The translations under genes were made by a program, and so were the position numbers. DNA of 64,000 bases from Vibrio sp. 10N.261.55.A7 (GTDB lineage Bacteria > Pseudomonadota > Gammaproteobacteria > Enterobacterales > Vibrionaceae): positions 1 through 64,000 of the forward strand of contig NZ_MCWZ01000317.1 in the NCBI RefSeq assembly GCF_002877365.1, given 5' to 3'. Below, in pieces: positions 1,477 to 8,223 of the stretch (position 1 is the stretch's first letter; every line of letters starts with the position of its first letter). The notes beneath the pieces were generated by a model. The model did not search any database, was not told where the DNA came from, and saw nothing but the letters and a program-made list of their open reading frames with translations.

Positions 1477-1510
1477 ATGTCCGCCTGTCATCATAGCGGG
1501 TATCGAATAG

Positions 1511-1693
1511 GATACCCCAGAGTGCCGTTGAGGATTGTGGCCCTTGAACCATCTGGTTCAAGGCGGGTCAGCAAGGGTGACCGTAGGCTTCTCGGTACGA
1601 GCCGAGCTTGCTCAATAGTCATCGAATACTAATCCTAGGGTATTGCTTATCGGCTCAGGGACTTAAATCCTGCTGACGCACACTCCAGGGTAA
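1511..1693 (-). ncRNA. ssrS: 6S RNA
   Basis: Non-coding RNA that binds sigma-70 RNA polymerase holoenzyme in stationary phase. The minus strand contains landmarks shared with E. coli 6S RNA: CCCTGAGCCGATA, GAGCAAGCTCGG followed by CCGAGAAGCC, and CCTTGAACCA-TGGTTCAAGG near the 3' end. The two ends, ACCCTGGAGTG and CACTCTGGGGT, pair to close the long rod. It lies between zapA and fau, the classic gammaproteobacterial location. The ends are estimated from the closing stem, to within about 5 bases. Confidence 0.93.
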
Positions 1694-1757
1694 AACGGGT
1701 ACAGTTTAAACGGTTGTCGTTTACTGTTGGTAAAGTAAAGTGTATCAGTATTTCCAG

Positions 1758-4180: not shown

Positions 4181-5407
4181 ATGATGCAAAGCGTCGATAT
4201 CGCAATTGTTGGTGGTGGCATGGTTGGTCTGGCTCTCGCTGCTGCTTTTAAAGAGACAGATTTACGAATTGCCGTTATTGAAGGACATCGGCCTGATGAA
4301 AACTTGAAAGACCTGCCCGATGTGAGAGTGTCGGCGTTGAGTCGTTCAAGTGAAACTATTTTGAAGAATGTGGGTGCGTGGCAAGGTATTGAGCAGCGTC
4401 GACTTTCCCCCTATGTAGGAATGGAAGTATGGGAGCAAGACAGCTTTGCCCGAATTGAGTTTGAAGCAAAGCAGCACGCTCAGCCTAACTTAGGACACAT
4501 TGTTGAAAACCGAGTCATTCAGCTCTCACTCCTTGAAAAAGTGAAGCAGCAGTCGAATGTCTCTCTGTTTATGCCTAATACCTGTTTGAGTATTGCTGTC
4601 GGTGAGAGTGAAGCGTGGTTATCTCTTGATAATGGCCAATCATTGACGGCAAAACTCGTTGTAGGCGCTGATGGCGCTAATTCGTGGGTAAGGAATCAAC
4701 TTGATATTCCATTGACGCACTGGGATTACGGCCACAGTGCAATCGTCGCGAACATCAAAACAGTAGAGTCCCATGAATCGACCGCGAGACAGATCTTCAC
4801 ACCACTAGGCCCATTGGCGTTCCTGCCAATGTCAGAACCCAATATGAGTTCAATCGTATGGTCTACAGAACCTACTCGTGCTGAACAGCTAATTAAGATG
4901 TCTGACGCAGAGTTTAATAAGTCATTAACCGCTGAATTTGATCACCGCTTGGGTTTATGTGAAGTGGTGGGTGAGCGTTCATCTTTCCCACTTCGAATGC
5001 GTTACGCTCGTGATTTCGCTCTCGATAGAATTGCTTTGGTTGGTGATGCAGCACATACGATTCACCCGCTTGCTGGGCAAGGCGTGAATCTTGGGTTGTT
5101 AGACGCTGCGAGCTTGGCGCAAGAAATCAATCAACTTTGGCGACAAGGTGAAGATATAGGCAGCAAGCGAAACCTGCGTAGCTATGAACGCTGGCGAAAA
5201 GCAGAGGCGGCGAAAATGATAGCGTCGATGCAAGGCTTTAAAGATTTGTTTGAAGGTGATAACCCTGCGAAAAAATTGCTTCGTGGTATTGGAATGCAAT
5301 TAACTGGTCAAATCCCAGGAGCGAAAGACGAGATAATGAAGCGTGCGCTTGGATTAAAAGGCAACCTTCCAGAGCTAGCTAAGGCGAATCACAGCGAATT
5401 TGTCTAG
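4181..5407 (+). CDS. ubiI: 2-octaprenylphenol hydroxylase UbiI
   Basis: FAD-dependent aromatic hydroxylase (formerly VisC) acting at C5 of the ring in ubiquinone synthesis. N-terminal dinucleotide motif DIAIVGGGMVGLALAAA, central VGADGANSWVRN, and the second FAD motif VGDAAHTIHPLAGQGVNLGLLD around residue 290. At 408 aa it is close to family length. The start is ATG-ATG; either codon could be used. Paralogous to ubiH just upstream, and followed by a strong terminator. Confidence 0.93.
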   Translation: MMQSVDIAIVGGGMVGLALAAAFKETDLRIAVIEGHRPDENLKDLPDVRVSALSRSSETILKNVGAWQGIEQRRLSPYVGMEVWEQDSFARIEFEAKQHAQPNLGHIVENRVIQLSLLEKVKQQSNVSLFMPNTCLSIAVGESEAWLSLDNGQSLTAKLVVGADGANSWVRNQLDIPLTHWDYGHSAIVANIKTVESHESTARQIFTPLGPLAFLPMSEPNMSSIVWSTEPTRAEQLIKMSDAEFNKSLTAEFDHRLGLCEVVGERSSFPLRMRYARDFALDRIALVGDAAHTIHPLAGQGVNLGLLDAASLAQEINQLWRQGEDIGSKRNLRSYERWRKAEAAKMIASMQGFKDLFEGDNPAKKLLRGIGMQLTGQIPGAKDEIMKRALGLKGNLPELAKANHSEFV

Positions 5408-5437
5408 CTCGTCAGCTCTGAGCGCATTAGAACTAAA

Positions 5438-5465
5438 AAGGGTTGGCAATTTGCCAACCCTTTAT
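5438..5465 (+). terminator. Terminator after ubiI
   Basis: AAAGGGTTGGCAA and TTGCCAACCCTTT form a perfect stem with flanking A and T runs. It can work in both directions, serving ubiI (+) and ytfK (-). Confidence 0.85.
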
Positions 5466-5494
5466 CTTTAAGCCTATTTTTTTAAGTGCAAGTT

Positions 5495-5701
5495 TTAAGC
5501 ACAAACACAGCGCAGTCTTTTAATTTCTAGATTCACTTCTTTAACTGCCTGAAAGTGACGATTATCAGCACGTTCTGGCAGGATGAGTTTTCCGTTATCA
5601 AACTCAAACTTTCCTACGCCATAAATGTAAATTTTCCCTTTAAAAAGCCTACTAACATGTTTGGCAATCATACTCGGCGTATAGCGCTTAAACAGTCTCA
5701 T
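5495..5701 (-). CDS. ytfK: YtfK-like DUF1107 protein
   Basis: A 68-aa protein resembling E. coli YtfK over its whole length: MRLFKRYTPSMIAKHVSRLF, then KGKIYIYGVGKFEFDNGKL and a C-terminal VKEVNLEIKRL. In E. coli YtfK activates the (p)ppGpp synthetase activity of SpoT during phosphate and fatty-acid starvation. That role here is inferred from family membership. AAGGAT at suitable spacing precedes the ATG. It is monocistronic between the ubiI terminator and a long non-coding region; a TATAAT lies about 40 bases upstream of the start. The end has an unusual Cys pair (LRCVCA). Confidence 0.85.
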   Translation of the reverse strand: MRLFKRYTPSMIAKHVSRLFKGKIYIYGVGKFEFDNGKLILPERADNRHFQAVKEVNLEIKRLRCVCA

Positions 5702-5737
5702 ATTCTTATATCCTTATTATTCTTCCTAGCACCGCGA

Positions 5738-5743
5738 ATTATA
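5738..5743 (-). promoter_or_regulatory. Possible -10 element of ytfK
   Basis: Minus strand TATAAT about 36 bases before the ytfK start. No convincing -35 is visible. Upstream, AATCCCC (5746-5752) and GGGGATT (5778-5784) form an inverted repeat that could be an operator. Confidence 0.35.
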
Positions 5744-5806
5744 TAAATCCCCCACTGATATTGTTGTGATAAGACGAGGGGATTATGCAGATAAACCAAC
5801 TCAATT

Positions 5807-5848
5807 GGATATTTGTGCTGCTCTAAGCAGATATGAAGACAAATATCC
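5807..5848. repeat. Inverted repeat (potential stem-loop)
   Basis: GGATATTTGT (5807-5816) and ACAAATATCC (5839-5848) are perfect 10-bp inverted arms around a 22-base loop. The loop contains a nested CTGCT/AGCAG hairpin. No T tract follows on either strand, so it is not an obvious terminator. Confidence 0.5.
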
Positions 5849-6030
5849 GACTTAGCGTGATGGATTCCTCAAAGTTAATGCAAGTCTGATTTTCTATTGT
5901 TCAATTTTTCCACGTATGGTGCTGGAAAATTGTGACACTTTTAAGAATAGCGTGATTATATTTAATTGTGTTAATTTTTTGTAAATAGAAAATGTAATTT
6001 ACTATGAATAGTGAGTGAGGAATGGAGGGT

Positions 6031-6058
6031 AAAAAAAGCCCGCTCATAATTGGCGGGC
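6031..6058 (-). terminator. Rho-independent terminator (orphan or of the ygfZ operon)
   Basis: On the minus strand a GCCCGC/GCGGGC stem with a 9-base loop is followed by seven T residues. It lies about 230 bases after the last codon of the YbaK-family gene. It could therefore end that operon or a separate small RNA. Confidence 0.7.
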
Positions 6059-6178
6059 GAATAGTCACAGATGCATTACACAAAAAGTGGATGTCCTGAA
6101 ACAATCAGTGGATTCACTTTTTTGTTGGGAAGGAGTAAAGCGACCATTGGGCTGCCTCAATTTCAACCAACATCCATA
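6031..6178 (-). ncRNA. Candidate small RNA or structured 3' UTR
   Basis: No protein is convincing in 5702-6288, yet the minus strand shows an ordered layout. There is a possible -10 (TATACA, 6185-6190), then a CU-rich ACTCCTTCCC stretch (6127-6136) complementary to a Shine-Dalgarno site, then a long stem-loop (arms 6080-6092 and 6112-6125), then a strong terminator. This resembles Hfq-dependent small RNAs. No good -35 was found, so it may instead be processed from the ygfZ-YbaK mRNA. I know no named family that it matches. Confidence 0.35.
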
Positions 6179-6288
6179 CTCTACTGTATAAAATTACTGG
6201 TGACTATTTATGTTTTTATTTTGAATATTAATTCTTTTGATTAGAGCACTAATTACGATGTAGATCATATGTGCCTGCAATGGAATGG

Positions 6289-6777
6289 TTAGTTTTCTTT
6301 ATTTCTGCGACATATGTCCGCCACGAAAGGATTGCAAAGGGTGATGAGGTCTTGGCAGCTTAAACTGATCCCTAACATAGGGTCACCACTACTGATCGTA
6401 ATCGTGGTTTCTTTTAAAAGGCGAGAATCGAAAAAGATAGGCATTGTGCTTTTGAGTAGTAGCGGGTTTACGGTACCTGCCTGATAGCCTGTGACAGACT
6501 CTATTTCATTTCGTGCAACGCACGTCATTCGCCGACAATTGAGTAAAGATCGCACGCGTTTAGGATCAACACTTTTGTCTCCGGGCAAACAAGCAAGAGC
6601 GTATTGATTACCCATATCGCGTAACACGATACTTTTCACCATCTGAGAAGGTCGAACACCACGCTGCCGTGCTGTTTCTTCGATGGTTATCGTCGGCTGT
6701 GTTTGATGCAGCAAATGATAGTCTATTTGCTGCGAGTCAAGGTATTCCGTTACGGGTGTCGCCAGTGCTTTACTCAT
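6289..6777 (-). CDS. YbaK/EbsC-family aminoacyl-tRNA deacylase-like protein
   Basis: 162-aa single-domain protein of the YbaK/prolyl-tRNA editing family, whose members hydrolyse mischarged aminoacyl-tRNAs. Supporting stretches are [19 protein letters not shown] at the start, [10 protein letters not shown] with the conserved Lys near residue 48, [33 protein letters not shown], and the closing [18 protein letters not shown]. Which amino acid it edits cannot be told. The start overlaps the end of ygfZ by 8 bases, so translation is probably coupled to that tRNA-modification gene. Confidence 0.82.
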
Positions 6778-7741
6778 CGTCTAATGAGTATGGTAACGCT
6801 TGTAGGGACCAGTTGTATTCAGGTTGATCTTTAAGACGAAGTTGGGTGTCGCTGTCGAGATCTTTAGAGCCTATGATGAGCCCGATCGCTCGGTCGTTAC
6901 CAAATTGGTAATAACTGAGTAAATCACCGGCTGAACGCCAGTTTTCCCCTACGGCTCTCTCTAGGGACACAGAGTCAAAAGAAGACAGCGCCTTTGAGGT
7001 TGAACCCGATACGATATACATGACGCGTTTGTTCATGCCTCTGTATTTGGCGCGTGCGACCGTTTCTTGGCCAGTGTAACAGCCTTTAGAAAAACTAATG
7101 CCACCAAGAGCTTGTAGGTTGAGTGCTTGCGGAATATGAGTGTTTTGTTGTGAACTATCAACGTAGGGCAGGGCGGACTCTATATCAAACCGAGTCCAAA
7201 TATCTTCGGCTACGGTTTGTGCGTCAGCCTGTGAGATGAGTTCCTCAGCCGACTCTGATGAGACAAGCAGCACCCAACGCTGACTGTCCACTTTAACAGC
7301 AGTGCCTCCAGTGATTATTCTAACATCGCCAGTGTCATCACTGAGTGTATCGATCCACGCCTGTGCTTCACTGCCAATGACACCGAGAGTGATATCTTGG
7401 CTTTGCTGTATCTCAACTTTTGCGAAGATAGCGTATTTCTTGAGTTCTGTTAGTTCGGTGTCAATCGCGCTTAAAGGTTGAATCATCGCGTAGCCATCAT
7501 TGTGATGAAACAGGCGGAATATACTCCAAACCTTGCCTTTGGCATCACAGTGAGCCCCAAAGGTTGATTGGTCGCTATTTAGCCCAACCACATCACAGGT
7601 GACTTGCCCTTGCAGGTAAGACTTCTTGTCGTCGCCGCTCATTGTAATCGCTCCCCAAGCGCTTAAATGAGTTAACATTAATGATGGAAGCGAACTCTCT
7701 GGAGAGATTGAAAGTGAAGTAAATTGTTGCTGCCAGTCCAT
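6770..7741 (-). CDS. ygfZ: tRNA-modifying protein YgfZ
   Basis: Folate-binding protein of the glycine-cleavage T-protein-like family, needed for the MiaB-dependent methylthio modification of tRNA and for repair of some Fe-S enzymes. The family signature KGCYTGQE with its conserved Cys lies near residue 220. It is preceded by [15 protein letters not shown] and followed by [12 protein letters not shown]. The N-terminal domain has [11 protein letters not shown]. At 323 aa it is full length. It is divergent from sdhE-ygfX, as in E. coli, and overlaps the YbaK-family gene downstream. Confidence 0.95.
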
Positions 7742-7962
7742 GTTACCGTCCTAAGTACAATGATTAAGGGAGAGTGTGACCTATGTTAATCGTTAAGGCT
7801 TGCATAATTCAAGGAATAGCCTGATTTCCTTTGTGTGTGCGGATGACACACGATTGCCGTTCTGTGTATTTTTATTGAAGTAGCGGATTGTGACTCGGTT
7901 ACTAGTCGCGGTTTGTTGAGATTGTTACACTCTGGCTAGGATTACACAGTAGGGAACAATTC

Positions 7963-8223
7963 ATGTACACCACAGAACAAAAAGCACGTGTTAAGTGGGC
8001 TTGCCGTCGAGGAATGCTAGAGCTTGACGTGGTCATTATGCCTTTTTTTGAAGAGTGCTTTGAGTCGCTAAATAGCTCAGAACAACAAGATTTCGTTTCT
8101 TTGCTTGAGTGCGATGACCCAGACTTGTTTACATGGGTGATGGGACACGGTCGTAGCGAAAATTTGGGTCATGCATCCATGGTAGACAAAATTGTCGCAC
8201 ATAACCTCTCTAAGGTTCGTTAA
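7963..8223 (+). CDS. sdhE: Succinate dehydrogenase flavinylation factor SdhE
   Basis: 86-aa protein (formerly YgfY) that promotes covalent FAD attachment to SdhA and FrdA. The essential RGxxE motif is present in KWACRRGMLELD near residues 15-19. The rest matches the family five-helix fold (FVSLLECDDPDLFTWVMGHG). It is divergent from ygfZ and is followed by ygfX, whose likely start lies inside the end of this gene. Confidence 0.95.
   Translation: MYTTEQKARVKWACRRGMLELDVVIMPFFEECFESLNSSEQQDFVSLLECDDPDLFTWVMGHGRSENLGHASMVDKIVAHNLSKVR

Follow-up and report, generated by a model that had tools for sequence, protein, structure and literature searches.

The intergenic region that separates ybaK (6289-6777) from a DUF1107 gene (5495-5701) raises the question of whether it encodes an RNA of its own and, if so, what controls this RNA and with which messengers it may pair. 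We analysed a 64-kb stretch of Vibrio sp. 10N.261.55.A7 DNA (positions 1-64,000 of NZ_MCWZ01000317.1; hereafter the window), for which a first-pass annotation had proposed a minus-strand small RNA (sRNA) that blocks translation through an anti-Shine-Dalgarno (anti-SD) stretch. BLAST, a covariance model and the predicted fold all pointed to an sRNA gene of ~141 nt at 6171-6031 on the minus strand. The folding energy of 6172-6031 was -40 kcal/mol (z -2.53), with 3 of 200 shuffled sequences folding equally well or better, and the predicted RNA length in 116 homologs had a median of 137.5 nt and a range of 106-192 nt. We concluded that 6171-6031 is almost certainly a true small RNA gene, because it is conserved and syntenic, has covarying stems and carries its own promoter and terminator, and because the lengths of its stems vary without keeping a reading frame.

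Three hairpins make up the predicted fold: one at the 5' end, one in the middle and the terminator, which is followed by seven U. The 5' stem-loop (6124-6171, minus strand) pairs GUUGG at 6171-6167 with CCAAC at 6128-6124; it forms at least four pairs in 109 of the 116 folded homologs, with about 40 different arm sequences. The long stem-loop of the first-pass annotation corresponds to the middle one (6082-6123, minus strand), whose arms, at ~6123-6115 and 6089-6082, lie close to those first given. The intrinsic terminator with seven T (6058-6031, minus strand) is also present in the sequence as described earlier, with a stem of 6058-6053 paired to 6043-6038 and the T run at 6037-6031. The 5' stem, the linker at 6081-6060 and the operator at 6199-6237 were absent from that annotation. 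For the stems we used an alignment of 51 of 93 distinct cores, hand-picked for diversity (L014, L046, L097 and L026 are among those left out). In these 51 homologs the terminator helix was paired in 100% of cells, the outer helix of the middle stem-loop in 96.6% and its inner helix in 64.1%. Cells changed on both sides numbered 21 versus 8.7 in shuffled alignments, none of 500 shuffles being as high, and the count was also lower in every slid version of the alignment. The number of pairs changed on both sides and the number of further pair types were not above the shuffles (51 and 306 of 500 as high, respectively).

Between the middle stem and the terminator lies the conserved linker GUGUAAUGCAUCUGUGACUAUU (6081-6060, minus strand), the probable seed; as GTGTAATGCATCTGTGACTATT it is nearly invariant. 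An 18-base piece of the linker was exact in 27 of 30 BLAST loci (the best 30 of the matches) and had one mismatch in the other 3. Across a collection of 84,980 species, 97 contigs contained the same piece exactly; their titles name Vibrio in 95 cases, a Vibrionaceae bacterium in one and a Vibrionales bacterium in one. The BLAST set is the fairer sample of linker conservation, since the 97 contigs were themselves picked by the exact linker piece. In the 116 predicted folds the central part of the linker had a mean unpaired probability of ~0.6 and the first GUG was mostly paired, so that with the exception of this GUG the linker offers the conserved and accessible pairing region typical of trans-acting sRNAs.

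BLAST matches to the sRNA were obtained in 34 of 61 relatives; of the 329 genomes in the family, 215 matched the covariance model, and these belong to 4 of 13 genera. The genes that neighbour the sRNA in the window were present at all 127 loci examined. Five loci from two other genera (g26 and g30) have these neighbour genes and keep AATGCATCTGTGACT. The model matches in G119 and G141, two genomes of one genus, have E values of 0.0025-0.005, are without the neighbour genes and are probably false. Genomes called sRNA-negative below are those without a covariance model match, a class in which diverged copies may hide; about 397 kb from two such genomes was searched, and the neighbour genes were not in it. 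At seven loci (L014, L019, L042, L050, L083, L109 and L113), among them those of V. metoecus (L050) and V. mimicus (L113), ygfZ was matched and ybaK was not; ybaK has seemingly been lost there and the sRNA kept.

We next consider the promoter. The possible -10 of the first-pass annotation is best read, from the sequence and its relatives, as TAGAGT at 6183-6178 (minus strand), 17 nt from a -35 TAGTCA at 6206-6201 (minus strand); the block CATAANTAGTCA is found in most relatives, and the position of the -10 predicts a start at ~6171 on the minus strand. This promoter is a reading of a conserved block and not a tool match: a consensus scan of 4500-8000 listed neither the sRNA promoter nor its terminator. 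ArgR sites were scored with an 18-bp ARG-box matrix for which 16 Vibrio genomes supplied the argC and carA promoters (29 of 32 sites; argC_L165, carA_L192 and carA_L202 were dropped because their top match was off the expected place), and the search form was two ARG boxes spaced 21 bp. The distal box (6220-6237, minus strand; plus-strand sequence TTTGAATATTAATTCTTT), a predicted ArgR site, reached 16.5 bits alone and is the best single box in the 64-kb window. The proximal box (6199-6216, minus strand), 21 bp from the distal one and overlapping the -35, scored 0.5 bits alone, which places it in the top 0.8% of window positions. The two-box score at 6199-6237 was 17.0 bits, first in the window, with the next pair at 6.6; a spacing of 17 scored slightly above a spacing of 21 at this site (17.8 vs. 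17.0). The promoter thus has the pair of ARG boxes at 21-bp spacing that marks the ArgR regulon, the proximal box being weak in the window.

Among the 97 named loci, 90 could be ranked (seven were omitted, the locus start being too near the gene). The sRNA promoter was the top two-box site in 81 of these and within the top three in all 90, spacing 21 was best in 65, and the median scores were 10.2 for the distal and 5.6 for the proximal box, the in-sample value for argC and carA being 13. For the two other genera, the best two-box site was at the sRNA promoter in 5 of 5 loci. Permuted matrices put the promoter first in a mean of 33 and a maximum of 82 of the 90 loci against 81 for the real matrix (1 of 200 permutations at least as high); on 15 of the 90 loci the mean was 5.4 and the maximum 14, with 14 for the real matrix. 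The AT-rich promoter region favours permuted matrices too. A search for exact-consensus box pairs came up empty in the own genome; of three other Vibrio, one had 1 pair, and an outgroup had 4. With a reversed control pattern, 2 and 1 pairs were likewise obtained. A matrix-free, independent sign of ArgR control is given by the two off-locus BLAST matches to the promoter, one of which lies before argA (an amino-acid N-acetyltransferase, N-acetylglutamate synthase; 686 bits) and the other before a dimethylargininase gene. We concluded that the sRNA is, on sequence evidence, very probably under ArgR control: the operator ranked first by the argC/carA matrix argues for repression by ArgR and for synthesis of the sRNA under arginine shortage, and the position of the proximal box over the -35 fits repression.

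Two observations were made away from the sRNA locus. In L342 (G040), which comes from another family of the order, a dimethylargininase gene is preceded at ~1567 by a strong predicted ArgR site. In L365 (G005:C1:2122829) the proximal-box-like sequence AAAATAAAAACATAAGCGAATAGTCACAG stands directly before a terminator-like hairpin and a T run.

Next, we asked with which leaders the linker may pair. Duplex energies brought out a motif in the argC leaders, TAGTCA, which is complementary to UGACUA of the linker. It follows the second ARG box at a fixed distance of ~25 nt, and the promoter predicted in 38 of 42 leaders (TTGACA, 16-18 nt, TA.AA.) would put it ~50 nt into the transcript. In the first 16 Vibrio genomes the motif was present in all 14 with the sRNA and in neither of the 2 without it. 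After the idea had formed, argC was fetched from 30 more genomes (26 Vibrio); in these 26 later Vibrio genomes alone, TAGTCA was found in 8 of 9 sRNA-positive versus 1 of 17 sRNA-negative leaders (Fisher p 5e-5, kinship ignored). For all 42 Vibrio genomes the figures are 22 of 23 and 1 of 19, the exceptions being G034 and G249. On a tree of the argC region (a quick method, with good support for 23 of the 43 branches), six changes are needed for the sRNA and six for the motif. Independent change, simulated with rates proportional to branch length, never reached the observed agreement of 40 of 42 genomes in 80,000 runs, and the best agreement among 3,308 flanking coding 6-mers of like prevalence was 35 of 42. 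The independent-pairs test yielded 2-4 concordant and 0 opposed pairs, which are too few (p at least 0.125).

The predicted pairing was stronger in sRNA-positive genomes (mean z -1.78) than in sRNA-negative ones (-0.42). The match between linker and argC leader is short, at 6-9 bases. The leader of the own genome (L163) carries UAGUCA twice, at sites that are 70 nt apart and match the linker over 8 and 9 bases, and in some argC leaders a second contact was predicted at GGAUG before the start codon. The argC leader is unusually long in the own genome and in two near relatives (L390 and L392). Taken from sequence comparison, the evidence tips slightly towards the argCBFGH leader being a target of the sRNA in Vibrio. 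We regard as evenly balanced the further proposal that the sRNA and a pairing site in this leader evolved together, through several separate losses, so that ArgR would set arginine synthesis twice, at the DNA and at the RNA level.

The motif could instead act as DNA, as an element in the promoter of the divergent argE gene. According to this explanation the sRNA is still controlled by ArgR and has its main targets elsewhere, and TAGTCA before argC, either the -35 of argE or an ArgR-related site, shares its history with the sRNA without pairing with it. The linker is indeed conserved in two other genera that have the sRNA and whose argC leaders lack TAGTCA (present in 0 of 4 sRNA-positive genomes). 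Moreover, 16 of the 18 sRNA-negative Vibrio leaders lacking TAGTCA keep TAATCA at the same place (counted by eye), which suggests that the element has a function without the sRNA, and TAGTCA also occurs inside the sRNA promoter itself. Against this, the base that differs between the two forms is one that pairs with the linker, simulated independent change did not match the observed agreement, and by eye no suitably spaced -10 is seen for argE, which is weak evidence. We therefore consider the DNA element possible but doubtful, and the pairing of the linker with the argC leader remains the reading that we follow below.

Further targets must exist, since conservation of the linker extends beyond the bases that the argC site needs, and also to genera without that site. 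A GU-tolerant search of 31 genomes with a 20-mer, allowing one mismatch, returned the sRNA locus itself and scattered single matches only. In six genomes, searches with perfect 10-mers complementary to three linker segments revealed no conserved site at gene starts. For the first two 10-mers all 91 non-self matches were examined, and the regions that matched one another were coding or antisense; for the third, 30 of 32 matches came with loci, of which 7 were the sRNA locus and the other 23 had no mutual match. No clear pairing signal was found in the carA leaders. The strongest duplex among the 66 ORFs of the window was with rseB (11855), which was rejected as a target because the duplex is not kept in 18 relatives (mean -13.8 vs. 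-19.1).

On balance we favour an intergenic, trans-acting sRNA of the Vibrionaceae whose promoter is an ArgR operator and whose linker binds mRNA leaders by base pairing. With ample arginine, ArgR on the two ARG boxes would cover the -35 and the sRNA would be silent; when arginine is short, ArgR would be released and the RNA would be made along with the arginine genes. We infer this control by arginine from the known action of ArgR and from the position of the operator. The linker, exposed between the middle stem and the terminator, would then pair with mRNA leaders, presumably with the help of Hfq; an own promoter and an intrinsic terminator with a U tract, both features of Hfq-dependent trans-acting sRNAs, were found by computation. 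In Vibrio, UGACUA of the linker would pair with UAGUCA in the argCBFGH leader, and probably with other leaders too, and GGAUG before the start codon may be a second contact in some species. As a guess, translation of the arginine biosynthesis enzymes would be damped or timed. We lean slightly towards damping rather than activation because of this predicted second contact. In the textbook view, repression of arginine genes by ArgR is a DNA-only circuit. If the favoured explanation is true, an RNA arm has been added to the ArgR circuit in Vibrio, and a first function would be assigned to the linker of this RNA, which is widespread in Vibrio and apparently undescribed. Between species that bear the sRNA and species that lack it, the proposed site mostly differs by a single base, which provides a natural test.

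Three other explanations concern the nature of the RNA. It might derive from the 3' UTR of the ygfZ-ybaK transcript and not from an independent gene: the sRNA is on the same strand as these genes, and the end of ybaK is 83 bp ahead of the -35. However, a conserved operator and promoter lie in between, and the seven loci with a ygfZ match but without a ybaK match still carry the RNA, so that this origin is very improbable. The second explanation is that of the first-pass annotation, an Hfq-dependent RNA that blocks ribosome binding by an anti-SD stretch. The stretch ACTCCTTCCC is present at 6136-6127 (minus strand) and is largely unpaired in the predicted fold, but a single one of the 116 folded homologs has it; 6 of the 116 contain a 6-nt anti-SD (CTCCTT, ACTCCT or CCTCCT) and 38 contain CTCC. 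Because ACTCCTTCCC is not conserved, a translation block by anti-SD pairing is unsupported, and as a conserved mechanism it is refuted; we give the idea hardly any credence. What stands of the earlier proposal is the Hfq-dependent-like layout, with its conservation, covarying stems, promoter and terminator: relatives have kept the stems and have not kept the proposed seed. Lastly, the RNA is most unlikely to be a messenger for a small protein, since the 23-codon frame MVALLLPNKKVNPLIVSGHPLFV that ends in the linker of the window, although dual-function sRNAs such as VcdRP occur in Vibrio according to the cited portion of PMC8672173, has a counterpart of at least 15 codons ending there in just 28 of 127 homologs, and the spacing between the linker and the beginning of the middle stem takes values of 35-40, 53-54 and others that are not steps of three.

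We also compared the sRNA with known RNAs. The first-pass annotation had recognised no named RNA, in agreement with our search of Rfam 15, in which no family reached its gathering score at the sRNA locus and a relaxed threshold gave sub-threshold matches only. The sole match at gathering score in the window was 6S RNA at 1510-1694 (minus strand; RF00013, 121 bits). Among the matches listed from the open-access literature we found no description of the RNA, of its sequence or of an ArgR-controlled Vibrio sRNA; it may well be an unnamed entry in the published V. cholerae sRNA lists (Vcr numbers). It is a known kind of sRNA with an unusual regulator and a testable target. The logic proposed here is that of RyhB under Fur, in which a repressor that senses a metabolite keeps an sRNA silent until this metabolite runs short and the sRNA adjusts metabolism; the regulator, the sequence and the targets differ. 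The linker resembles the seed of SgrS; SgrS was rejected, as it was not among the Rfam matches to E 10. VSsrna24 is reportedly another Vibrionaceae sRNA. In V. cholerae, VC2472 is presumably ygfZ and VC2473 the DUF1107 gene. A CRP peak of V. cholerae is listed at VC2473 in the cited portion of PMC6050953.

GcvB (RF00022) is likewise an amino-acid related sRNA that is present in Vibrio too; it was rejected at 15.6 bits against a gathering score of 42, and its place also differs, GcvB of V. alginolyticus lying between thiI and gcvA in the text cited (PMC9409037). VcdRP (Vcr082) of V. cholerae is described in the cited part of its report as longer than 300 nt, with a 29-aa frame, a seed of four consecutive C and repression by CRP, and it shares with the present RNA its occurrence in Vibrio, a 3' pairing region before the terminator and a role in metabolic control (PMC8672173). 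In contrast, the sRNA studied here has ~141 nt, ARG boxes, no conserved frame and, in the window, no CCCC, and identity with VcdRP is ruled out by length, frame and seed. CarZ (Vcr084) of V. cholerae is also a Vibrio sRNA tied to an arginine/pyrimidine operon, carAB, but as far as the cited text describes it, it derives from the carAB 3' UTR (PMC7398697), whereas the sRNA here lies between genes and has an operator of its own. ArgX of Lactococcus lactis is likewise tied to ArgR and arginine metabolism; by its description in the cited excerpt, on which the comparison is based, it comes from the argR 3' UTR of a Gram-positive bacterium and targets the deiminase pathway (PMC6586332). As far as that excerpt goes, ArgX is the nearest parallel among the matches listed, with a different origin.
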